The notes beneath the pieces were generated by a model that saw nothing but the letters and a program-made list of their open reading frames with translations, ran no database searches and was not told the origin of the DNA. From positions 1 to 43,137 of IMG/VR virus record IMGVR_UViG_3300046507_000896: a stretch of 43,137 nt of DNA. One strand, written 5' to 3'. Each line of letters opens with the position of its first letter. Positions within the stretch are counted from its first letter, which is position 1. This document shows, piece after piece, positions 1 through 43,137 of this stretch. A program made the position numbers and the translations under genes. This DNA comes from a virus.

Positions 1-771
1 CTACCAGTTCATAATTGCCAGCTCACCGGTGACCGCAGCTTTCCCCTGCCTTGGATTCGCGGTGCTGTAGCGGATATCCATCATCTCCAGACGGAACCCA
101 TCGAACACACGGCGCACGTCTGGATGATCGTTGATGCTGATCATCACCTTGCCCTGGCACTTCCGCATGAAGTCGGCCATTCGCTCGTACTCCTCAAAGC
201 CGAAGTCCTCCCCATAGCCCTGGGTCTTCCAATACGGAGGGTCCATATAGTGGAACGTGTGGGGTCGGTCATATTTCTCCGCACACTTGAGCCATGGAAG
301 ATTTTCGACGTACGTCCCAGAAAGGCGTTGCCAGGCTTCTGACAGGTTCTCCTCGATCCGCAACAAGTTGATGGGTCGGCCGGTGGTAGCTGTACCGAAG
401 GTTTGTCCGGTTGCCTTGGCGCCGAAAGCATGGTGCTGAAGATAGAAGAACCGTGCAGCCCTCTGGATATCCGTCAGGGTTTGCGGCACCGCCATTTTTT
501 GCCACTCAAAGATCTGCCGCGAGCTGAGTGCCCATTTGAACTGGCGTACGAACTCCTCGAGATGGTGCTGAACGACACGGTATAGGTTCACCAGGTCGCC
601 ATTGAGGTCGTTTAGGACCTCCACTCGGGCAGGCTGGTCGCGCTTGAAGTAAAGCGCGGCGCCGCCGGCAAACACTTCCACATAGCATTCGTGATCAGGG
701 AAAAGCGCCAGCAGGCGCTTGGAAAGTCGCCGTTTACCGCCCATCCATGGAACGATTGGATTCGCCATCAT
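1..771 (-). CDS. dam: Dam-type DNA adenine N6-methyltransferase (D12 class)
   Basis: 256-aa protein that should transfer methyl groups from S-adenosylmethionine to adenine N6 in a short DNA site, often GATC in this family. The N-terminus has the D12 signature around NPIVPWMGGKRRL (residues 4-16). An AdoMet-binding FAGGAA motif follows at about residue 35, and the catalytic DPPY lies in HYMDPPYWKTQGYG near residue 175. The length is typical and the stop codon is the first three bases of the window, so the gene is complete. An AAGGAG ribosome site lies just upstream of tandem ATG codons; either could be the start. Phage enzymes of this type often protect phage DNA from host restriction or alter regulation. 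The target sequence cannot be read from the protein. Confidence 0.9.
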   Translation of the reverse strand: MMANPIVPWMGGKRRLSKRLLALFPDHECYVEVFAGGAALYFKRDQPARVEVLNDLNGDLVNLYRVVQHHLEEFVRQFKWALSSRQIFEWQKMAVPQTLTDIQRAARFFYLQHHAFGAKATGQTFGTATTGRPINLLRIEENLSEAWQRLSGTYVENLPWLKCAEKYDRPHTFHYMDPPYWKTQGYGEDFGFEEYERMADFMRKCQGKVMISINDHPDVRRVFDGFRLEMMDIRYSTANPRQGKAAVTGELAIMNW

Positions 772-6944: not shown

Positions 6945-7185
6945 ATGAGCCGGCGATGTACCCTACGCCCGCGCCGATCGCAGTGCCAATTGGGCCAAAC
7001 GCAGACCCCACCATTGCACCGGTGGTTGCCATGCCTACTTGGCTAGATTGCTTGTTAGCCTTCGCCTGCTGATTCATCTGGTCCTCGGCCAGCTTTGCCT
7101 GTTGCTGCTGTTGTGACAGCTGGGAGAGGCCTTGCATCGCCTCACCCTGCATTTCTTGCTTCAGTCCAACCAATCCGTATGCCAT
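6937..7185 (-). CDS. Small virion protein with Gly-rich hydrophobic C-terminus
   Basis: 82-aa protein. The first half is a Gln/Lys-rich helix (LSQLSQQQQQAKLAEDQMNQ). The last ~30 residues, GAMVGSAFGPIGTAIGAGVGYIAGSF, form a glycine-zipper-like hydrophobic helix that could insert in a membrane. It sits five bases after the next upstream gene in the virion operon. A role in the ejection apparatus is an inference from position and membrane-active composition. A holin is less likely because the lysis genes lie 17 kb away. Confidence 0.65.
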   Translation of the reverse strand: MAYGLVGLKQEMQGEAMQGLSQLSQQQQQAKLAEDQMNQQAKANKQSSQVGMATTGAMVGSAFGPIGTAIGAGVGYIAGSFM

Positions 7186-7189
7186 AGCC

Positions 7190-7606
7190 TTACCCTCCCT
7201 GCTTCAGGCCGCTGAGGCCCATGCCGCCAGCCATGATTTGCTCCTGCAGGTCACGCGCGGAGATTCGCGCGTTATTGCTCGCATCCACTGAAGCCGAGGC
7301 TCGACCAAGCTGCATTTTCCGGTCTTGCGCGGCCTGTTGGGTAGGTGACAGGACGAGGCCCATCCCCTGCTGCTGTAGCTGGAGCCCTTGATTCGCGCTA
7401 TCGAAAGATTTGTTCACCGACTCGGTGGCGGTCGCTGCTTGTTCGCCGGCAAAAGAATCGCTGGTTGCGATGTTCGCCAGCTTGTCGACGTATGGCTGAA
7501 AGCGCGCCTTCCAGTCGTCCCATTGAGCTCGGCTGAGCTGCCCAAGAACATTGGAGGCTCCTTGTTTGCCGGCAAACGCGGCGCTCGGATCAACGTAGTA
7601 GGTCAT
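7190..7606 (-). CDS. Small Ala/Gln-rich virion protein
   Basis: 138-aa protein starting MTYYVDPSAAFAGKQGA. It is predominantly helical, with Q- and A-rich stretches and no cysteines or membrane segment. The start codon shares one base with the upstream stop, which supports translational coupling and the start choice. With its two neighbours it forms a trio of small, low-complexity proteins between the tail and the ejection proteins. No family is recognised; a minor structural protein is the simplest reading. Confidence 0.65.
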   Translation of the reverse strand: MTYYVDPSAAFAGKQGASNVLGQLSRAQWDDWKARFQPYVDKLANIATSDSFAGEQAATATESVNKSFDSANQGLQLQQQGMGLVLSPTQQAAQDRKMQLGRASASVDASNNARISARDLQEQIMAGGMGLSGLKQGG

Positions 7607-8295
7607 TATGCGTAGCCCGCGAAGTTGGCACCGCCTGCGACATTGTCATAAAGCTTGCCGCTGGTACCTGATGGATTGAGAACGGTGGAATTGGCCGCGG
7701 TTGTCCTTGCTGGAGCCATATTGTTGAGACCGTAGGAGACTCCACCTGCGACAGCACCAAGCGCCGTGCCAGCGAGTTGTAGGTTCGCTGACTTACGGTT
7801 GAAGTTGGTGAAGGCCGCCCCTTGGGCATCCTGAGCCGCCTGGCTTGCAACGGTGTTCAGGCCGGCCTGTGCCTGGGATGATTGTCCCTGACCAATTGCT
7901 GCGACATTGCTGAGCCCGGCGATTTTTTGGCTTTTTTGTTCAAACTGCGCGCGCGCCATAGTGTCGCCGCCGGCCGTCCCTACACTTGTTGCCAGATCGC
8001 CCTGGGCAGAGGTGAAGCGACCACTATTCGGATTCAGCCCATATTGCTGGGTGACACCCTGGTTCAGTTGCTCCATTCCGGAGCTGAGCGCCTTTTGCGT
8101 CCCGGCGTTGGTCTTGCCGCGGACGTACGCCATGCTCCCTTCGGAATCCATGTCGTCAACACGCTTCATGTACGCATTTTCAACCGGAGCCAGGCGCTCC
8201 TGGGCATAGTTCCACTTTTCAGCCGCCACTTGCGCGGCATACTTTTGCTCCGGCGTATCCTGGATTGAGTTATCGGTCTTGCTTCCGCCGCTCAT
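7606..8295 (-). CDS. Virion protein, helical N-terminus and Gly/Ala-rich C-terminus
   Basis: 229-aa protein. Residues ~15-60 are a charged helix (EQKYAAQVAAEKWNYAQERL). The middle is Gln/Ser/Ala-rich. A short hydrophobic segment, LAGTALGAVAGGVSYGLNNM, lies near residue 175. The composition matches the other putative internal proteins. The start ATG overlaps the preceding stop by four bases, giving tight coupling. An internal or ejection protein is inferred from order and composition only. Confidence 0.65.
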   Translation of the reverse strand: MSGGSKTDNSIQDTPEQKYAAQVAAEKWNYAQERLAPVENAYMKRVDDMDSEGSMAYVRGKTNAGTQKALSSGMEQLNQGVTQQYGLNPNSGRFTSAQGDLATSVGTAGGDTMARAQFEQKSQKIAGLSNVAAIGQGQSSQAQAGLNTVASQAAQDAQGAAFTNFNRKSANLQLAGTALGAVAGGVSYGLNNMAPARTTAANSTVLNPSGTSGKLYDNVAGGANFAGYA

Positions 8296-8756
8296 AATTC
8301 GCCTCGCTTGATCAGGTCTTGGTTGTAGGCAGAAAAGGTCTCATCGTGAAAGTGTCGGCGAATGCTGGCAGATACTTCTGCCATCCAGGCGGTACCTCCA
8401 ATCAGGTACGCACACTGCACCACCAGGCCGGTAAGCTGGTCCCTGAGGACAAAAGCCAGGCTGCGTCCATGATGGTCGCCGTCCAACTCAAGCGTGACAC
8501 TGTCGCGCCAATCTTGAAGCGCAGCCGCCATCAACGGGCGAACAAAATTCTCAAAATGGCGGTAAAACGGGTTGATCGGCAGCTCGATAAGTGCCAGCCA
8601 GAAGGCATGGTAAATGTCGTTCGTGGTGAGAGCTTTGTCACCGTCGACGATGTCGTCGAGCGTCTGCGATATCGCGAAAAGCGTTTCGCAAAACGTAATG
8701 GCGTTAGGGTCACCCTTAAGAACCCGGGCAAGTAGCTGCTCTTGTGTTTCACTCAT
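8292..8756 (-). CDS. Conserved-looking phage protein of unknown function
   Basis: 154-aa soluble protein (MSETQEQLLARVLKGDPN...). It is rich in aromatic residues and histidine, with no membrane segment or recognisable catalytic motif. An acidic TLDDIVDGDKAL and a LIGGTAWMAEVS stretch stand out. It lies ten bases downstream of the tailspike stop and overlaps the next virion gene by four bases. An assembly factor or minor structural protein is possible; the sequence alone does not say. Confidence 0.6.
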   Translation of the reverse strand: MSETQEQLLARVLKGDPNAITFCETLFAISQTLDDIVDGDKALTTNDIYHAFWLALIELPINPFYRHFENFVRPLMAAALQDWRDSVTLELDGDHHGRSLAFVLRDQLTGLVVQCAYLIGGTAWMAEVSASIRRHFHDETFSAYNQDLIKRGEL

Positions 8757-26975: not shown

Positions 26976-27167
26976 TCACCTGTCTGGTTGGCTGCCCGCA
27001 ATCAATCGGCCGTTGATGAGGCATGTGTCAGCGTGCAAAACGAATGGCGGCTCTGCGGCCATCACGAGCGCGATCTGGCCATTGGCGCTGATCTCCAGGT
27101 CGTAATAGGCGCGGGCAACCGGACGCGATCCATGCTGCTGATCCGGCCATTGCTCATCCTTGTGCAT
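26976..27167 (-). CDS. Small phage protein, probable
   Basis: 63-aa protein MHKDEQWPDQQHGSRPVARAYYDLEISANGQIALVM.... The YDLEISANGQIALVM and FVLHADTCLINGRLIAG strands look like a compact beta protein. It ends five bases before the next start, so the two are probably cotranscribed. The ribosome site is weak and the start uncertain. It lies just after the tRNA gene. Confidence 0.5.
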   Translation of the reverse strand: MHKDEQWPDQQHGSRPVARAYYDLEISANGQIALVMAAEPPFVLHADTCLINGRLIAGSQPDR

Positions 27168-27187
27168 TCACCCACATGACTGTTGTT

Positions 27188-27273
27188 TGGCGGAAGGCGA
27201 AGGAGTCGAACCCTTACCGTTTCCAGCAGCACCGGGTTCAAACCGGTTTGCCTACCACTTGGCGCCGCCTTCC
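27188..27273 (-). tRNA. Probable tRNA-Ser (anticodon UGA)
   Basis: Reading the minus strand: acceptor arm GGAAGGC pairs perfectly with GCCTTCC, followed by discriminator G and encoded CCA. The D arm has GCC/GGC around AAGTGGTA. The anticodon arm ACCGG/CCGGT encloses TTTGAAC, giving anticodon UGA. A ~16-base variable arm marks the serine/leucine class. The T arm contains TTCGACT with four good pairs and one mismatch. It would read UCA, a rarer codon in GC-rich pseudomonads. The terminator just upstream means it needs its own promoter or processing from a read-through transcript. Confidence 0.72.
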
Positions 27274-27281
27274 AGTAACGC

Positions 27282-27303
27282 AAAACCCCGCACACTGGCG
27301 GGG
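27282..27303 (-). terminator. Terminator upstream of the tRNA
   Basis: On the minus strand CCCCGC, CAGTGT loop, GCGGGG, then TTTT. A six-pair GC stem with a short T-run, placed between the control region and the tRNA. Confidence 0.65.
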
Positions 27304-27484
27304 CTCTTGAATGGGTGCAGGTGGCTGGTGCAACTCTCCAGCTCTGGTGGGGCAGATCGCCGGGTCGCGCACCCTGCCCTCTCATCGCGTAGCCGCCCAT
27401 TGTCCGCACGGGATTAGACGACGCCTCTACCAACTTAGCCCAGCTGCCTGGGCGATAACCTGCATAAAACAATCGGGCATTAGC

Positions 27485-27590
27485 TGCGCAATATGCGCAA
27501 TTCCAATCCCCTGAAACATTCACACAACCCGCGCAGCGTCTGTTTTTGCGCAAGCTGCGCAGGTGCGCACTGACTGCGCAGAACTGCGCA
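27485..27590. promoter_or_regulatory. Array of seven TGCGCA palindromes
   Basis: The six-base palindrome TGCGCA occurs at 27485, 27494, 27547, 27556, 27564, 27575 and 27585; a near match (CGCGCA) lies at 27530. Five of them are spaced 9, 8, 11 and 10 bases apart, close to one helical turn, so a protein could bind them on one face of the DNA. No convincing gene crosses the array. It lies between the early region and the tRNA/lysis/late operon, so a late-gene control site or a binding array for a phage regulator is a reasonable inference. No known regulator is matched. Confidence 0.55.
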
Positions 27591-27687
27591 CCCTGGCTCA
27601 ATGTGCGTTGATATAGATGGCGACCCTGTCAGATCGCTGTCGTGGCGCTTCCCCCCAGTCCCCACGCTGACTGTTCCCCCTGCGCCG

Positions 27688-33636: not shown

Positions 33637-33944
33637 TGCAGCGTCTCCCCATCCGGCTTGGCCAGGCCGTAGCTGACCATGTGCACGTGGTCGACCTTGC
33701 ACTTGGCGAAGGAAGGCTCCATACCGATCAACCGACGAGTCAGTACGCGCAAAGCAATGGCAGCCTCAGCAAAAGAGCAGGCGGCCTCGTGGATGTTGTC
33801 CAGCAGGTTTTCTTCGTCGAACAGGACATCGAGGTAGTCGTCATGCAGGCGCCAGGCGAAGAAAGCCAGCTGGTCATTGCCGAACTGCTCGAAGTACGCC
33901 TCGTTGCGCTCCTCGATAACTGGGGGCGTTTCGGTGTTGTTCAT
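33633..33944 (-). CDS. Early-operon acidic protein
   Basis: 103-aa protein MNNTETPPVIEERNEAYFEQFGNDQLAFFAWRLHDDYL.... It is acidic and helical, ending YGLAKPDGETLQ. AAGGA lies seven bases before the chosen ATG, and this ATG overlaps the stop of the BRO gene. The frame is open further up but runs over that gene. Unknown function, possibly a small host-interaction protein. Confidence 0.65.
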   Translation of the reverse strand: MNNTETPPVIEERNEAYFEQFGNDQLAFFAWRLHDDYLDVLFDEENLLDNIHEAACSFAEAAIALRVLTRRLIGMEPSFAKCKVDHVHMVSYGLAKPDGETLQ

Positions 33945-34705
33945 GCGGAAGTCCTTAGGCGCAGCTTGAAGCGGCCTTGCTGAATATCGGGGTGGGTAGC
34001 GCGCTCGGCGGTGACGAACGCGCACTCGGAGGCGAACCGGTCAAAGCGGCGGGTGATATCGGCGGTGGGCCAGATCGGATACGGCTGTGCACCGTCGTCA
34101 GCGTGGTTGCTACGCACCATGGCAAACGGCAGCGGCGCGCCGGGGATGTCTCGCATTACGGCGTTGATAACCCAGGGAGGAATGCCGTGCCGGAGGTTGA
34201 TGCGGTGGCGGATCGTCGTCATCGACTCAAAACCGGCAGGCCTTGAGTCGAGGTATCGGACCTGCTCGACGCTAGCCACCCGGGTTTCAATGCCGGCGAC
34301 TGCCTGATCGATGCGATCCTGGCGGCGCTCCATGTCCACCAGTAGCTGGGCATTCGCCAGCAACTGCTCGGCCGGCGACAGCGGGTGCTCATAACTGCCC
34401 GTTTTTCGAATGCTCGGCAGTACCTCGCCCACCACCCATTCCTCGAATGCCTCAGCAGCTGGCATCTTCGAGCGCATCACAAGACGATAAAGATCTCGTT
34501 CTGGCACCACTTTCACGTGCCGGACCTGACCCGCCATTTCGACGGGGTAGGTCTGCGCAGCCTTGCAATGAGTGCGAATAGCTTTGTCGGTGTCGGCATA
34601 ATCCAGAAGATCGGCGACATCCTTGGCGACAAACAACGGCTCTCCGTGCTCACCGGTGATGACGCGGATGGCGGTACCGCGAAAGTCGAAGGGAACCAGG
34701 TTCAT
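33941..34705 (-). CDS. BRO-N domain antirepressor-like protein
   Basis: 254-aa protein. Residues 1-~105 form a BRO-N domain: TAIRVITGEHGEPLFVAKDVADLLDYADTDKAI, then VKVVPERDLYRLVMRSKMPAAEAFEEWV and a typical VLPSIRKTGSY. The middle is a coiled coil (ERRQDRIDQAVAGIETRVAS). The C-terminal ~90 residues form a second domain of uncertain type. BRO/Ant proteins bind DNA or inactivate repressors in many temperate phages. Overlap with the next start by four bases places it in the early operon. Whether it binds CI is not visible. Confidence 0.82.
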   Translation of the reverse strand: MNLVPFDFRGTAIRVITGEHGEPLFVAKDVADLLDYADTDKAIRTHCKAAQTYPVEMAGQVRHVKVVPERDLYRLVMRSKMPAAEAFEEWVVGEVLPSIRKTGSYEHPLSPAEQLLANAQLLVDMERRQDRIDQAVAGIETRVASVEQVRYLDSRPAGFESMTTIRHRINLRHGIPPWVINAVMRDIPGAPLPFAMVRSNHADDGAQPYPIWPTADITRRFDRFASECAFVTAERATHPDIQQGRFKLRLRTSA

Positions 34706-36472: not shown

Positions 36473-37201
36473 ATGAAAAAACGAACCCTCCCAGACGCAC
36501 TTGCAAACGAGTGCGCGCTCCTGAAGGCGCTTTACGTTGCGAAACGTAAAGAAATGAATCTGACCCAGTCAGATCTCGCGGATGCGCTGGGCGTGAGCCA
36601 GGCGGCGGTTAGCCATTATTTGAATGGCGAGAATCCGTTAAATACAAGAGTGGCCGCGATCTTCGCGCAAAAGCTTGGCGTCCCAGTTCAAGCCTTCAGC
36701 CCTCGCCTTGCAAGGCAGATTGAGCAGAGTGCTGCGGCCGCCAACCTTGGCGCCGGCCTTAGCAACGACGCGAACATTCAATACGTGGGACAGCCAAGGC
36801 TGTCGTTTAGCTATCCATTCCTAAGCTGGGTAGCAGCTGGCTCATGGGCAGAAGCCAATGAGCCTTACCCGCCCGGCTTTTCGGATCGATACGAACTGTC
36901 CGACTATGAAGCCAAGGGCGCGGCCTTCTGGCTCGAAGTAAAAGGCGACTCTATGACTTCTCTGTCAGGAATGAGCATTCCTGAGGGGATGCTGATACTT
37001 GTGGACACAGAAGAAGAAGCACGCCATGGCAAGCTTGTCGTGGCAAAGCTTACCGATAGCAACGAGGCAACCTTCAAAAAGCTTGTAGAGGATGGTGGTC
37101 AGCGCTTCTTAAAGCCGCTCAACCCCGCCTACCCGATGATGGCAATCAACGGTAATTGCAAAATAATTGGCGTTGTCGTCCGGGCGCTGATGAAACTCTG
37201 A
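36473..37201 (+). CDS. cI: CI-type phage repressor (HTH + S24 peptidase)
   Basis: 242-aa repressor. Residues ~25-65 form an HTH_3 domain (MNLTQSDLADALGVSQAAVSHYL). The C-terminal ~110 residues are a LexA/CI S24 self-cleavage and dimerisation domain: KGDSM with Ser160, IPEGMLILVD, and Lys in TFKKL near residue 202. A likely self-cleavage bond lies in WVAAGSW (Ala122-Gly123). It keeps lytic genes off and would cleave itself on RecA activation. No ribosome site precedes the ATG, and the TATAAA element lies only ~9 bases before it, so the message may be leaderless, as for lambda cI from PRM. Confidence 0.9.
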   Translation: MKKRTLPDALANECALLKALYVAKRKEMNLTQSDLADALGVSQAAVSHYLNGENPLNTRVAAIFAQKLGVPVQAFSPRLARQIEQSAAAANLGAGLSNDANIQYVGQPRLSFSYPFLSWVAAGSWAEANEPYPPGFSDRYELSDYEAKGAAFWLEVKGDSMTSLSGMSIPEGMLILVDTEEEARHGKLVVAKLTDSNEATFKKLVEDGGQRFLKPLNPAYPMMAINGNCKIIGVVVRALMKL

Positions 37202-37336: not shown

Positions 37337-37657
37337 ATGACCACCACAACCATCAACTTCGCAGGCTTCACCGGCTTCCTGGGCCGCGGAGCAGCTCCGC
37401 GTGAGCTGCAGTGTTTGATGGCAGTGGCGGCTGGTAAGACCTCAAAAGAGGCCGCTCGCGAGCTGGGGGTTTCAGCTAACGCCATCGATAAACGCCTTCT
37501 GGCACTGACAACCAAACTGGGTGTCACTCGGCGGGCCGCTCTCGTAGCAAAAGCTTTCGCGCTAGGCCTGATTCAGGCTGCCTGCGTTATTGCCCCCAAC
37601 CCCGGACCGCAGCGCCAAGAAGACAGCGCCCAGTTCCTGGGCACTTTTATCGCTTAA
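37337..37657 (+). CDS. LuxR/GerE-type helix-turn-helix regulator
   Basis: 106-aa protein. Residues ~20-80 match the LuxR C-terminal DNA-binding domain: PRELQCLMAVAAGKTSKEAARELGVSANAIDKRL, with KRLLALTTKLGVTRRAALVAKAF following. There is no sensor or receiver domain, so it is a stand-alone DNA-binding protein. It follows the cI terminator with its own operator pair. It may be a lysogeny or late-gene regulator, or affect host genes; its targets are unknown. Confidence 0.8.
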   Translation: MTTTTINFAGFTGFLGRGAAPRELQCLMAVAAGKTSKEAARELGVSANAIDKRLLALTTKLGVTRRAALVAKAFALGLIQAACVIAPNPGPQRQEDSAQFLGTFIA

Positions 37658-38879: not shown

Positions 38880-39549
38880 TTTGATATGCCGTAAATCCAT
38901 GACTCGCTGCCTGATACCGGGTATGTGTTCGCCACACGGCGGCTGCCAAACGCCAGAAGTGGCACCAGCATTCCGCACTTTGCTGGCCGAACGCAACTCG
39001 CTGGCCTTCCTGCTCAAGCGCTTCGTGGATGGCGAGCACGACCAAGACGAGAACCAGGCCGAGCGCCACATGTACCACGACGAGGCGAAGAATCTGCTGG
39101 CTTACCTAGGCCGCGAGTTGCACGGCCACACCTTGGTGCCGGACGAGGCCCTGCGCAGGCTGAAAGCCGAGAACGAGCGGCTGCAAACCCTGACTCAGAC
39201 CGAGATCGACAAAGCTCGCGAAAGTGCAAAGGAGGTAATGGGTGCGCGTATGACGCTTCACACGCTGGAGCGGGAGCGCAATCAGCTGAGAGCGTTCGCC
39301 GTTCAAATGATCAACGCCAGCTTCGATGGCGGCAGCTTTGACGGCGGCGACATTCAAAACATCGCAGTGAAGCACGGCCTGTTGCGGATCGAGCAATACG
39401 AGGATGACTGTGGCGCGGTTTGCGCCTGCCGGGAGTATGGCTTTCCGGCTGAGTGCTATCGCAAGACGCCGATCCTTGGCACCGGGCCGAAAGAGGTCGC
39501 GACACCATCCACGGATAACGAAAACGTGTCGCGACACGAAGAGCGGTGA
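38872..39549 (+). CDS. Coiled-coil protein upstream of excisionase
   Basis: 225-aa protein with a GTG start preceded by GGGGAG, beginning MTDLICRKSMTRCLIPGM. A Cys/His-containing N-terminus, a central coiled coil (LRRLKAENERLQTLTQTEIDKARES, LHTLERERNQLRAF) and a C-terminal segment with CGAVCACREYGFPAECY (four cysteines) suggest a metal site. It overlaps the preceding gene by eight bases. Unknown function. Confidence 0.6.
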   Translation: MTDLICRKSMTRCLIPGMCSPHGGCQTPEVAPAFRTLLAERNSLAFLLKRFVDGEHDQDENQAERHMYHDEAKNLLAYLGRELHGHTLVPDEALRRLKAENERLQTLTQTEIDKARESAKEVMGARMTLHTLERERNQLRAFAVQMINASFDGGSFDGGDIQNIAVKHGLLRIEQYEDDCGAVCACREYGFPAECYRKTPILGTGPKEVATPSTDNENVSRHEER

Positions 39550-39553
39550 AGCT

Positions 39554-39829
39554 ATGCGCTATGTGACCGTTAGGAAATTTGCCAGCGAGTCTGGCTATAC
39601 AGAAGACGCGATCCGCTCAAAGATCCGTGACGGGATCTGGCGGCTCGGTGAGATATGGATCAAGGCGCCGGATGGCCGGACGCTACTCGATGTAGAGGGA
39701 TACGAATCATGGGTAGAGGCGGGAGGGGAGTTCGGGCAGTCTCCGATTCGAGTATCGAAATCACGTTCATGTATCGGGGCGTCAGGTGCCGCGAGCGGAT
39801 CACGCTCAAGCCCACCGCCACTAATCTGA
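39554..39829 (+). CDS. xis: Excisionase-like protein
   Basis: 91-aa protein MRYVTVRKFASESGYTEDAIRSKIRDGIW followed by RLGEIWIKAPDGRTLLDVEGYESWVE. The N-terminal ~55 residues match a winged-helix excisionase of the type paired with this integrase in Pseudomonas prophages. The last ~40 residues overlap the integrase start in another frame and look unstructured. It should bend attachment-site DNA and steer integrase towards excision. Confidence 0.8.
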   Translation: MRYVTVRKFASESGYTEDAIRSKIRDGIWRLGEIWIKAPDGRTLLDVEGYESWVEAGGEFGQSPIRVSKSRSCIGASGAASGSRSSPPPLI

Positions 39830-40938
39830 AAAAGGCTGAGCAGCACAAGGCCGCTATCGAGCACGCGATATCGATCGGAACCTTCGACTACTCGGTGACC
39901 TTTCCAGGATCTGCCCGGGCGGCGAAGTTTGCGCCCGAGGCATCCCGCGAGACGGTCAATGGTTTCTTGACCCGGTGGCTGGCTGCCAAGGAGAAGCATG
40001 TCGCCAGCAGTACCTTCGACGGGTACCGGAAGCTGGTCACGCTTCGCCTGATCCCGGCCCTGGGCGACTCGATGCTGGTGGACCTGAAACGAAAGACGGT
40101 GCGGGACTGGCTCGACACTCTGGAGGTGAGCAACAAGACGCTCAGCAATATCCAGAGCTGCCTGCGCTCCGCCCTTAACGACGCCACAGAGGAGGAGCTA
40201 ATCGAATTGAACCCTCTGGCTGGCTGGACCTACTCGCGCAAGGCCGCTCCGCCGAAAGAGGACGACGTCGACCCATTCAGCCCCGAAGAGCAGCAGGCCA
40301 TTCTGGGCACCCTCTCCGGCCAAGCCCGCAACATGATGCAGTTCGCCATCTGGACCGGCCTTCGCACCAGCGAACTGGTGGCGCTGGATTGGGGTGATAT
40401 CGATTGGCTGCGTGAAGAGGTCATGGTGAGCCGCGCGATGACCCAGGCCAGCAAGGGAACGGCGGAGACCACAAAAACCGCCGCTGGGCGCCGAAGCGTG
40501 AAGCTGCTCCTCCCTGCGATGGAAGCGTTGAAGGCGCAAAAGGCGCACACGTTCCTCGCAGATGCCGAGGTGTTTCAGAACCCGCGCATGCTTGAACGCT
40601 GGGCGGGTGACGGCCCGATCCGAAAGACGATGTGGGTGCCGGCGATGAAGAAAGCCGGTGTGCGCTACCGTCGCCCATACCAAACTCGCCATACCTATGC
40701 GTCGATGATGCTGTCAGCAGGCGAACACCCAATGTGGGTGGCCAAACAGATGGGGCATAGTGATTGGACTATGATTGCACGAGTTTATGGCAGGTGGATG
40801 CCAAATGCAGATAATTCAGCGGGAGAAAACGCAGTACGCGTTTTCTCAGAACTAAGTCGATTAGACGGAGCAAATCACAATGGGCTCGATTGTAAGCCTC
40901 ACGATTGGCGGGATAGAGATCGACTGGGGGAAAAATAA
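39709..40938 (+). CDS. int: Tyrosine-recombinase integrase
   Basis: 409-aa protein. An N-terminal arm-binding domain (MGRGGRGVRAVSDSSIEITFMYRGVRCRERI) leads to a core-binding domain (NGFLTRWLAAKEKHV...LRSALND, ~84-157). The catalytic domain has Arg219 (TGLRTSELVAL), Lys256, Arg327 (YQTRHT), His350 and Tyr360 (IARVYGRW). The first His of the HxxR box is Tyr here (Y324), seen in this family. I chose the ATG in the excisionase tail because an AGAGGGA site precedes it and the protein then begins like known relatives. It recombines the phage att with the ssrA 3' end. Its last ~20 codons overlap the next gene. Confidence 0.92.
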   Translation: MGRGGRGVRAVSDSSIEITFMYRGVRCRERITLKPTATNLKKAEQHKAAIEHAISIGTFDYSVTFPGSARAAKFAPEASRETVNGFLTRWLAAKEKHVASSTFDGYRKLVTLRLIPALGDSMLVDLKRKTVRDWLDTLEVSNKTLSNIQSCLRSALNDATEEELIELNPLAGWTYSRKAAPPKEDDVDPFSPEEQQAILGTLSGQARNMMQFAIWTGLRTSELVALDWGDIDWLREEVMVSRAMTQASKGTAETTKTAAGRRSVKLLLPAMEALKAQKAHTFLADAEVFQNPRMLERWAGDGPIRKTMWVPAMKKAGVRYRRPYQTRHTYASMMLSAGEHPMWVAKQMGHSDWTMIARVYGRWMPNADNSAGENAVRVFSELSRLDGANHNGLDCKPHDWRDRDRLGEK

Positions 40939-42076
40939 CGGATACATCAACCATTCAAAACTATTCACTCCCTCGGATAGAGCTCTACTGTCCATTACGA
41001 AAGATGATGATTGCGAATACGAGAACTATGGCTACCGGCGAACACTTCGCGATGCAAAGCCAAGGTTAGAACTGTACGGTTACAACGAATACACGATCAG
41101 GGAAATTTTTAACGAACATAAATTAAGCTACCCTGAATACCTCCCTCCTTTAGATATTGACTTTGACACTTTTGCAAGCATTGTAAAAAACATTGTTATC
41201 ACGCCTCAGGACCATCCGGAAGAAGATGGAAATTACGATCTTGGCGAATACGCCCAGATGATGTTCGGGCTGCCCGAATTTGCTGATTTAAGAGAAGCCG
41301 TGGGCACCAGGGATAGAAACACACTGTCTTTTTTTGAAAATCTTAATCCCTATATTCAATTGTGGTTGCTCTCAAAAAACCCTAAGAATCTTGATTTACA
41401 GCTTGAATGGCACACTGGCGGGATAATTGGAGGAGGCTGGACGAGCGATGAGGAGCTTTTCCGTGATTGGGAAAATGAGCACTCCTATTTAATTATCACT
41501 GAAGGCTCCAGCGATACATTCGTCATCAAAGAGGCAATTAGCTATTTGCGCCCTGACATTAAGGATTTCTTCAAATACATCGATATGACTGAAAACTATC
41601 CATTCACTGGCACAGGCAACCTTTTTAATTTTTATCAAGGTCTGGCGAGAATAGGGGTTGAAAACAAATGCCTCGTAATATTTGACAATGACACCGAAGG
41701 ATTAGAAAAGCATCAAAAGTGCTCAAAGATAAAAACCTTAAGCAATCTCAAAACCACTACGCTACCGCCACTTCCAGATTTTGAAAACGTCGATACAATC
41801 GGACCGAACGGTTTGTTTCGAGCAAACATTAATGGAAGCGCAGTCTCAATTGAATTATTTCTTGACCTTCAATACAAGAATTCGAAGCCGCCAATTGTAA
41901 GGTGGAGTAGTTTTAACAACCATATGCAATGTTACCAGGGTGCGCTAACGGATAAAGAATTCTATGTTTCCCAATTCCGAAAAGCTCTTAAAAAACCTTC
42001 TGGGTACGACTTTAGAAAGCTTCATGCCTTGATTGACCACATAGTATCGTGCTGCGGCTCAATGACAGCCCGATAA
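40880..42076 (+). CDS. HEPN/Toprim-associated-type protein with TOPRIM domain (candidate defence gene)
   Basis: 398-aa protein. Residues 1-~90 (MGSIVSLTIGGIEIDWGKNNGYINHS) match my memory of the 'HEPN/Toprim N-terminal' domain. A TOPRIM domain follows at ~202-285: ITEGSSD with Glu208, and VIFDNDTEG with Asp269 and Asp271. SIELFLDL (Glu325) may complete the metal site. TOPRIM domains bind Mg2+ and act in nucleases, primases and topoisomerases. No HEPN RxxxxH motif was found, so this is the TOPRIM form. GGAG lies about nine bases before ATG. The gene starts inside int, ends ~55 bases before the attachment site, and is AT-rich (20 G/C of 60 at 41821-41880). That place and composition fit a transferred phage-defence gene expressed in the lysogen. 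Nuclease activity is inference. Confidence 0.78.
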   Translation: MGSIVSLTIGGIEIDWGKNNGYINHSKLFTPSDRALLSITKDDDCEYENYGYRRTLRDAKPRLELYGYNEYTIREIFNEHKLSYPEYLPPLDIDFDTFASIVKNIVITPQDHPEEDGNYDLGEYAQMMFGLPEFADLREAVGTRDRNTLSFFENLNPYIQLWLLSKNPKNLDLQLEWHTGGIIGGGWTSDEELFRDWENEHSYLIITEGSSDTFVIKEAISYLRPDIKDFFKYIDMTENYPFTGTGNLFNFYQGLARIGVENKCLVIFDNDTEGLEKHQKCSKIKTLSNLKTTTLPPLPDFENVDTIGPNGLFRANINGSAVSIELFLDLQYKNSKPPIVRWSSFNNHMQCYQGALTDKEFYVSQFRKALKKPSGYDFRKLHALIDHIVSCCGSMTAR

Positions 42077-42131
42077 TCAATGACAGCAAAATGGCAGCTT
42101 GGAGGCTGTAAGCCACGTAATATAAGGGTTA

Positions 42132-42162
42132 GACGCGGGTTCAAATCCCCCCGGCTCCACCA
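42132..42162 (+). other. ssrA: attR: 3' end of tmRNA gene ssrA (fragment)
   Basis: GACGCGGGTTCAAAT and CCCCCCGGCTCCACCA match the T arm, acceptor strand and CCA end of pseudomonad tmRNA as I recall it. CGGCTCC would pair with the known 5' end GGGGCCG. No tmRNA body precedes it, so this is the duplicated 3' fragment left by integration. The intact gene should lie beyond the left end of the window. The T stem has one C-C mismatch (42136/42150), consistent with the left part being phage-derived. Confidence 0.75.
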
Positions 42163-42169
42163 CCTCAAC

Positions 42170-42199
42170 AAAAAAAGACGTCCACGGACGTCTTTTTTT
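42170..42199 (+). terminator. Terminator of ssrA
   Basis: AGACGTCC/GGACGTCT stem with A-run before and seven T after. Placed eight bases after the CCA end, it is probably the original ssrA terminator, now the first chromosomal element to the right of the prophage. Confidence 0.85.
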
Positions 42200-42786
42200 G
42201 TGCCTGAAACCCAGTAGATACAGAGCTTTCAGGGCTGCTGGGAGGAGGCACGCTCAGTCCTAAAGCATCCGATAATGCCGACGCCTACCGATCACCAAGG
42301 CGGAATTCGGCCAAAAGCAGCCTGTCGGATTGTTTAGTAAGTCGGAGTTGATACAGGTAAGGCTGATGCAAGGACGTTGATTTAGAGCTGTTCTATCAGC
42401 ATTTTCGGGTAGGCCTGGATGACAGGGTTGACGGGATGGCTCTCAGCCATGGAGCCGTCTTATAGTGCCGCTCAACGATGAGTCCAACAGAACAGGATCA
42501 ATTATTGACACCTCATTCAACCAGCCGCGATGCTTGAGGACATTCCAATGCCCGCATCAGCCGCACCATCGTTAGGACAGCGCTGACTGCCTAAAAAACT
42601 ATTTGACCCATCATAGAAGCTGTAAGAACAGTACTCGTGTGTTCCAATTTCGACTGATGCGACCCACAAACTTGATCTCGTGATCGCTCAACTAAAGATC
42701 TTCCGCGCTTCAATACGATGAGCCCCTTGAGCCCGTTGCTACACACTCTGGGACAAAAGCAGTCAGCAAGCAGCAGCAATGGCGAT
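42200..42786. other. Gene-free stretch of about 590 bp beyond attR
   Basis: No frame with a convincing start, ribosome site and protein-like composition was found on either strand. The sequence is mixed in composition and may be the remains of older insertions at this ssrA locus. No terminal repeats of a named insertion sequence were recognised. Confidence 0.5.
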
Positions 42787-43137
42787 TCAATTTTTGAAAG
42801 TCGTGTCCATAATATCTTGACGTTCGGCAACCCGCCGACACACAACGCCATAAACAATTTCCGCGATTTTGTTTGCCAATAAAGGCGGTACCGCATTGCC
42901 CACTTGGTGGTACTGCTGAGTTCGATTCCCTTCGAAATAATAGTTGTCTGGGAAGGTCTGAAGCCGCGCGGCCTCGCGAACGGTCAAGCTACGACATTGT
43001 GCTGGGTCGTAGTGAATAAAGTAGTGGCCATCCTTCGAGATATGGCTGGTGATAGTCGTTGCCGGAAGTTCTGCGAGCTGCACCCTAAAGCGGTCACTGA
43101 ATTTACCGCTTTCCCAGTTCTTGTGAGCAGGAGCAAG
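42787..43137 (-). CDS. DNA cytosine-5 methyltransferase, C-terminal part (continues past window)
   Basis: The frame is open to the last base of the window, giving about 116 C-terminal residues. [14 protein letters not shown] (motif IX-like) and [14 protein letters not shown] (motif X) are characteristic of C5-cytosine methyltransferases; [10 protein letters not shown] precedes them. The catalytic Pro-Cys motif and target domain lie beyond the right end. It is leftward, facing the prophage. A restriction-modification partner may lie further right; it cannot be seen here. An orphan Dcm-type enzyme is the alternative. Confidence 0.85.

Follow-up and report, generated by a model that had tools for sequence, protein, structure and literature searches.

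The integrase gene, the attachment core and the gene between them

The window, that is, the whole stretch of DNA that was analysed, is a 43,137-base virus record in which open reading frames (ORFs) were called mechanically. Toward its right end lies a tyrosine integrase gene, int (39709..40938, plus strand), whose product contains Arm_DNA-bind_2 and Phage_integrase domains (Pfam E-values of 1.5e-20 and 2.4e-15). The mechanical ORF begins at 39655; related integrases favour the ATG at 39709. Relatives of Int that are 80-93% identical are found in Pseudomonas phages, and Pseudomonas aeruginosa phages, JBD68 among them, carry int at 80% identity. This likeness ends at about residue 393, and the rest of the frame (40833..40938, plus strand) is a tail specific to the cargo. 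Among the relatives as well, similarity stops within the last 10-35 codons, and the cargo that follows provides int with its C-terminus and stop codon.

The gene that concerns us here (40880..42076, plus strand) begins 59 bp within the int ORF, which stops at 40938, and encodes 398 amino acids. After its end, 61 bp precede a 25-bp attachment core, GGTTCAAATCCCCCCGGCTCCACCA (42138..42162, plus strand), which is the 3' end of the tmRNA gene (ssrA) and forms the right end of the prophage. This identification draws on Rfam, on related loci and on a duplicate of the core in Pseudomonas viridiflava. The Rfam match to the tmRNA 3' end (42102-42162, E = 3e-7) stays short of the gathering score, since the gene is represented by its 3' end alone. 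An identical core lies 3' of int in most of the related loci. Beyond the core the sequence contains a terminator-like hairpin (42170..42199, plus strand), and in P. viridiflava the core is likewise followed, on its host side, by a similar hairpin (aaagacgtccaagggcgtctttttttg).

Positions 39496-42236 of the window are kept in P. viridiflava with 93.7% identity. The P. viridiflava genome has a single complete tmRNA gene, the 3' terminus of which is at contig position 428363; the 25-bp core recurs at 387134, where int and a homologue of our gene adjoin it. The presence of two cores 41.2 kb apart, one of them accompanied by int and the homologue, indicates that the P. viridiflava element is a 41.2-kb prophage inserted in ssrA. 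The homologue is the last gene of this prophage, at the int end, which is the same end as in the window. An earlier note on this DNA had described the gene as the last of the prophage, in a cargo position between int and the attachment site, and the identical layout in P. viridiflava bears this out. The note had also named the site attR. The core is indeed the tmRNA 3' end and is duplicated in P. viridiflava; the window, however, lacks a second copy, and the name attR is there an inferred one. When the leftmost 20 kb of the window were compared with a phage collection by Megablast, no phage was found.

Several other features of the window may be recorded. On the host side of the core an ORF that is truncated where the record stops (42790-43083, minus strand; Pfam E = 2.4e-17) encodes a C-5 cytosine DNA methyltransferase, of which the C-terminal portion is present, and a D12-class N6-adenine DNA methyltransferase (4-771, minus strand) occupies the left end of the record. 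The lysogeny region includes an S24 cI-like repressor (36473-37198, plus strand) and, downstream of it, a small LuxR/GerE-type regulator (37337-37654, plus strand); a LuxR-type regulator is likewise annotated in phage D14B. A BRO-N domain protein is encoded in the early region (33944-34705, minus strand), and a tRNA-Ser (TGA) gene (27188-27273, minus strand) inside the phage overlaps an unassigned ORF at 27062-27601.

The gene is intact and under purifying selection

The ORF is intact and starts with ATG on the plus strand at the coordinates given in the earlier note. The choice of start codon is supported by the Pfam match described below, which begins at residue 1. The gene was said to be AT-rich and this is so: its G+C content is about 0.41-0.42, compared with about 0.60-0.62 in int, and a value of about 0.42 holds from the end of int onward. 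Comparison with the P. viridiflava copy (locus L026), which is 97% identical at the protein level with 12 amino-acid changes, provides a measure of the constraint on the sequence. The two copies differ at 58 nucleotides, 44 of which fall in third codon positions, and the corresponding values of dN and dS are 0.014 and 0.207. The resulting dN/dS of 0.067 (about 0.07) shows that purifying selection on the gene is strong, and this rules out a pseudogene or a chance ORF. No PHROGs family was found for the gene.

The DNA just upstream was also inspected. A promoter-like site at 40787-40815 is no more than chance would give, one such site having been found and 2.7 being expected. An inverted repeat with perfect 10-bp arms and a 5-base loop is present at 40823-40847, in the tail of int and just 5' of the gene; it was dropped as a feature, one of its arms being altered in P. 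viridiflava.

The N-terminal half is a HEPN/Toprim-NTD1 domain

Residues 1-195 (40880..41464, plus strand) form the domain known as HEPN_Toprim_N or HEPN/Toprim-NTD1, for which an alpha+beta fold is predicted. The match to PF18871 covers residues 1-194 and profile positions 1-216 of 223, with E = 7.4e-27, and its score of 95.2 bits, against a curated cut-off of 25, places the protein in this family. When the domain was modelled alone, the alpha+beta fold was returned with a pLDDT of 90.9. Solved structures yielded no relative: the best Foldseek match had an E-value of 1.6 and the highest VIA Z was 2.3, values that do not in themselves prove a new fold.

The earlier description of a HEPN/Toprim-type N-terminus is thus right as to the family, but no HEPN domain was detected in the protein. 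None of the HEPN RNase families of Pfam matched the 398-residue protein, whose C-terminus is a TOPRIM domain, and an identity as a HEPN RNase was rejected. The term "HEPN/Toprim N-terminal" is merely the name of the shared N-terminal domain, for which a 2013 survey of HEPN proteins lists two HEPN families, TOPRIM and an Mrr-type nuclease as fusion partners (PMC3710099). The domain is modular. A Staphylococcus epidermidis plasmid protein, for example, matches NTD1 with E = 2.3e-15 and has a different C-terminus, without TOPRIM motifs and with an RNIVHH (RX4H) motif. Other relatives, at the search sensitivity used, share mainly the TOPRIM half.

The C-terminal half is a TOPRIM domain that most resembles the retron Eco2 effector

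Residues 199-398 (41474..42073, plus strand) were assigned to the TOPRIM superfamily, as had been proposed, on the basis of VIA-align, motif conservation and profile comparison. An AlphaFold model built from an alignment of 61 homologues (pLDDT 91.4) shows a TOPRIM fold over these residues, and E208, D269 and D271, within the ITEGSSD and VIFDNDTEG motifs as originally numbered, are invariant. Other searches gave little. A sequence-only search of solved structures returned chance matches and no relative of the 398-residue protein, Foldseek alone found no match to the full model at E = 0.001 or better, and the Pfam OLD-like TOPRIM model remained below threshold (E = 0.08; 13.9 bits, with 23.2 required). 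In PADLOC and NCBIfam the C-terminal half weakly matches RT-Toprim, or retron Ec67, models, with E of about 0.02-0.03.

The top VIA-align match of residues 199-398 was retron Eco2 (9lm3), with Z = 9.7 over 165 residues and 22% identity. T7 primase (Z = 9.4), a small Toprim protein (Z = 9.1) and OLD C-terminal regions (Z = 7.5-8.8) scored lower, and RNase M5 was also among the TOPRIM structures that aligned (Z = 7-10). Alignment of the C-terminal profile with an RT-Toprim protein by hhalign extended over 171 columns with 23% identity and paired TEGSSD with CEGKTD, GTGNL with GTGDL, DND with DND and SIELFLD with VIEDFFD. By fold, profile and alignment, then, the TOPRIM domain is closest to the effector of retron Eco2 (Ec67), and the earlier assignment to the OLD/Gabija type did not hold; the protein has no OLD ATPase.

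The likeness to Eco2 extends to the active site. In Eco2 the active-site residues are E374, D378, D460, D462, S513, E515 and K562, and changing them to alanine abolishes defence (PMC12405507). The codons for E208 to D212 (EGSSD; 41501..41515, plus strand) encode the counterparts of E374 and D378, and those for D269-N-D271 (the DxD motif; 41684..41692, plus strand) the counterparts of D460 and D462. E325 (41852..41854, plus strand), which is aligned by hhalign, is the likely counterpart of E515. K359 (41954..41956, plus strand) is probably the equivalent of the catalytic K562, a pairing suggested by the order of the residues and by invariance. E208, D212, D269, D271, E325 and K359 are invariant in every one of the 61 homologues, among which position 323 is either Ala or Ser.

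What does this domain cut? The isolated TOPRIM domain of Eco2 has RNase activity (PMC12405507), and an RNase is preferred here over a DNase because this closest relative is one. The Eco2 score is barely above those of other TOPRIM proteins, so the substrate cannot be read from the fold, and RNase as the more likely activity rests on one distant relative with 22-23% identity. It is also conceivable that the protein has the same defensive role but that its TOPRIM domain nicks or degrades incoming phage DNA or recombination intermediates, as would OLD or the GajA protein of Gabija. The structural likeness to OLD C-terminal regions (Z = 7.5-8.8) and the sub-threshold OLD-like Pfam match are in keeping with such an enzyme. 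By all three measures, however, the nearest protein is Eco2, a reported RNase, and the slot between int and the core provides neither an ATPase nor a helicase partner. We therefore consider a DNase unlikely, although it deserves to be kept in mind.

Homologues are widespread and lack a conserved partner

Within Pseudomonas the gene is patchy, occurring in 9 of 299 genomes. A scan of the genomes of bacteria and archaea confirmed 172 relatives, spanning Pseudomonadota, Bacteroidota, Bacillota, Planctomycetota and one archaeal MAG record. Relatives are present in 49 plasmid records, and NCBI applies the name "HEPN/Toprim-associated domain-containing protein" over the full length. A scan of viral contigs with the single protein as query found no relative, and the same scan with an alignment as query found 7. 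Defence genes adjoin homologues in a number of places: AbiV and CBASS genes at one locus, AbiEii at another, and a restriction endonuclease with RelBE at a third. Across 60 homologous loci no conserved partner gene was found, the commonest neighbour being a tyrosine integrase (5 of 60), and this lack of a conserved neighbour family favours a one-gene system.

Two individual loci may be mentioned. In Aeromonas (NZ_CP077204.1, L006:5001-6293) the homologue lies among Mu-like prophage head and tail genes; it adjoins the tape measure gene and is encoded on the opposite strand, as is typical of a moron. In an Oscillospiraceae MAG (L057:6477-6823, 7001-8203) the homologue starts about 180 bp past a complete tmRNA gene, which again links the family with ssrA, this time in a distant phylum.

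The slot between int and the core is a defence hotspot

It was of interest to compare the DNA between int and the core with the same interval in related phages. Matches to int in IMG/VR numbered 207, of which the best 80 were read, some near-identical contigs being included. Among 92 int loci, counting the window, 47 had int and the core in one record. In these 47 the distance from int to the core ranged from 58 to 2878 bp, with a median of 1042, and clustering of the intervening DNA yielded 34 different contents. The exchange of content at this boundary that had been surmised earlier is thus evident, and related phages do not always carry the same gene. Three loci are nearly without cargo (58 to 218 bp). 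In all 44 slots longer than 300 bp the G+C content is below that of the adjoining int (mean 0.461 vs 0.597). The main cargo is on the same strand as int in 24 loci and on the opposite strand in 19, and in 13 of the 24 same-strand loci the mechanical start of the cargo falls within the int frame.

The slots contain Pfam families that include RelA_SpoT, Panacea, RiboL-PSP HEPN, DarT, Macro, ParA-like AAA_31, HNH and GmrSD, and further TIR/SEFIR, YaaC, DUF3800, DNA methylase, zeta toxin and AAA_15 with or without an OLD TOPRIM. Cargo with no known part in defence, such as a 2-hydroxyacid dehydrogenase, is also present there. By contrast, the 202 ORFs that lie upstream of int in these loci fall into 65 clusters, the biggest of which has 52 members. 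In a PADLOC search at E = 1e-5 the 48 proteins of the slot set matched 208 models, among them those for DarT, AriA, Old and GajA and the candidate PDC-S33 (427 bits), and 48 upstream control proteins matched 10 models, all of helix-turn-helix regulators. The contrast of 208 with 10 is qualitative, since models rather than proteins are counted and related ATPase models overlap heavily. With fixed flanks, varying cargo and an enrichment of defence families, the slot is a defence hotspot, in agreement with the suggestion that this boundary is rich in defence genes.

Other slot contents were noted in passing. A protein with a RelA/SpoT domain and a length of about 380-418 aa is the commonest cargo, the one that matches PDC-S33 at 427 bits (loci L114, L117, L107, L134, L151, L133 and L157, at about 7154-8416). 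In IMGVR_UViG_2506783020_000011 (L128:5269-7275) the slot encodes an AAA_15 ATPase with an OLD-like TOPRIM/RloB-like C-terminus, which means that two unrelated types of TOPRIM effector use one place. Many cargo clusters have no Pfam match; those without one at E = 0.01 include L141:7121-7864, L150:7121-7765, L122:7690-8703, L131:5409-6614 and L116:7238-8227, and their genes are candidates for defence genes not yet described. The slot is accordingly a compact place in which to seek further one- or two-gene defence systems.

These data also bear on readings in which the gene does not act in defence. It might be part of an addiction or toxin-antitoxin module by which the prophage is retained in the cell, and the slots of other phages do hold toxin-antitoxin pairs (DarTG, Panacea, zeta). 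The slot of the window, however, has no second gene, nor is there a conserved partner in the 60 homologous loci, and we regard this reading as improbable. Anti-defence genes are established residents of phage defence hotspots in P2/P4-type elements, and the gene could in principle be one of these, aiding the phage against host immunity on entry. Against this are the catalytic nuclease domain, the lack of an early-gene position and the plasmid and chromosomal homologues that adjoin defence systems, which together make counter-defence very improbable. Finally, an accessory role in integration or excision at ssrA, or in other phage housekeeping, as might be imagined for a gene that adjoins int, overlaps its frame and belongs to a family whose commonest neighbour is a tyrosine integrase (though at 5 of 60 loci only), was rejected as largely refuted by slot turnover, related integrases with the same core having unrelated cargo or almost none (58 to 218 bp in three loci), and by the frequency of the gene on plasmids without such an int.

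A model for the action of the protein

Taken as a whole, the computed evidence, which covers the domains, the conserved active site, purifying selection, the layout, the turnover of the slot and its enrichment in defence families, suggests that the gene encodes a one-gene anti-phage effector, an Eco2-type two-metal TOPRIM nuclease, most likely an RNase, that is gated by NTD1 and is carried as slot cargo by an ssrA-integrating Pseudomonas prophage. We assign this reading a probability of roughly two in three. In the proposed mechanism NTD1 would most likely silence the nuclease, standing in for AriA or for the RT-msDNA guard of Eco2, until a phage cue frees the nuclease from this N-terminal restraint. 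The TOPRIM domain would then cut RNA, most likely tRNA or mRNA, so that translation stops in the infected cell, and RNA cleavage would halt phage growth in the manner of abortive infection. The slot itself would probably be refilled by recombination at the last int codons and the att core, a route suggested by the junctions, and each prophage might thereby arm its lysogen with a different weapon. A more specific version, which we put forward tentatively and hold to be somewhat doubtful, is that of an Eco2-like defence in which the RT and the DNA-RNA guard have been swapped for an N-terminal protein sensor of unsolved fold that directly gates the RNase, with the slot serving as a defence magazine holding one cargo at a time.

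Comparison with known systems

The protein family and its architecture are already known. The NTD1-TOPRIM fusion was predicted to be an abortive-infection protein by Anantharaman et al. in 2013 (PMC3710099), as a prediction without a test; a limited literature search found no experimental test of defence by this family. The domain order is the same as that described in 2013, and the protein is essentially no different. The statement in the earlier note that no characterised system has this exact layout must be qualified to this extent, and NCBI names the family as well. As for the slot, a narrow literature search found no description of one between int and the ssrA core in JBD68-related Pseudomonas phages. 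What differs from the 2013 prediction is that the gene is here a prophage cargo in this slot and that its TOPRIM domain is tied to the Eco2 type. The family is widespread yet has been only predicted since 2013. The present copy brings a well-predicted structure, catalytic residues named from a tested relative and a 97% identical partner prophage, and its function is directly testable.

Of the tested systems the nearest is retron Eco2 (Ec67; type I-C, RT-Toprim), with which the protein has in common the TOPRIM fold and the set of catalytic residues, that is, an effector of the Eco2 type. Eco2 has an RT in the same protein, whereas ours has NTD1 instead; no RT domain was matched in the 398 residues by Pfam, PADLOC or NCBIfam, and because there is no RT an msDNA gene is not expected. 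The AriB protein of PARIS is also a TOPRIM nuclease effector, a two-metal tRNase (PMC12409363). Here, in contrast, a single gene is found without the AriA ATPase: the slot has no ATPase gene, and the 60 loci have no conserved partner. OLD and GajA share the TOPRIM domain with its E and DxD residues. In OLD, however, an ABC ATPase domain is N-terminal, and in our protein that position is taken by PF18871, with no Pfam match to AAA_15 or AAA_21. Gabija combines the ATPase-TOPRIM protein GajA with the helicase GajB; our protein has neither the ATPase domain nor the helicase, and the slot is too small for a second gene of GajB size. With respect to location, the closest parallel is provided by the P2, P4 and K139-type hotspots, in which a fixed place in the phage, in some cases next to the integrase, holds a varying antiviral system (Rousset et al. 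2022, PMC9122126). The slot described here is alike in this regard, and is distinguished by its position between int and the att core in ssrA-integrating, JBD68-related Pseudomonas phages.
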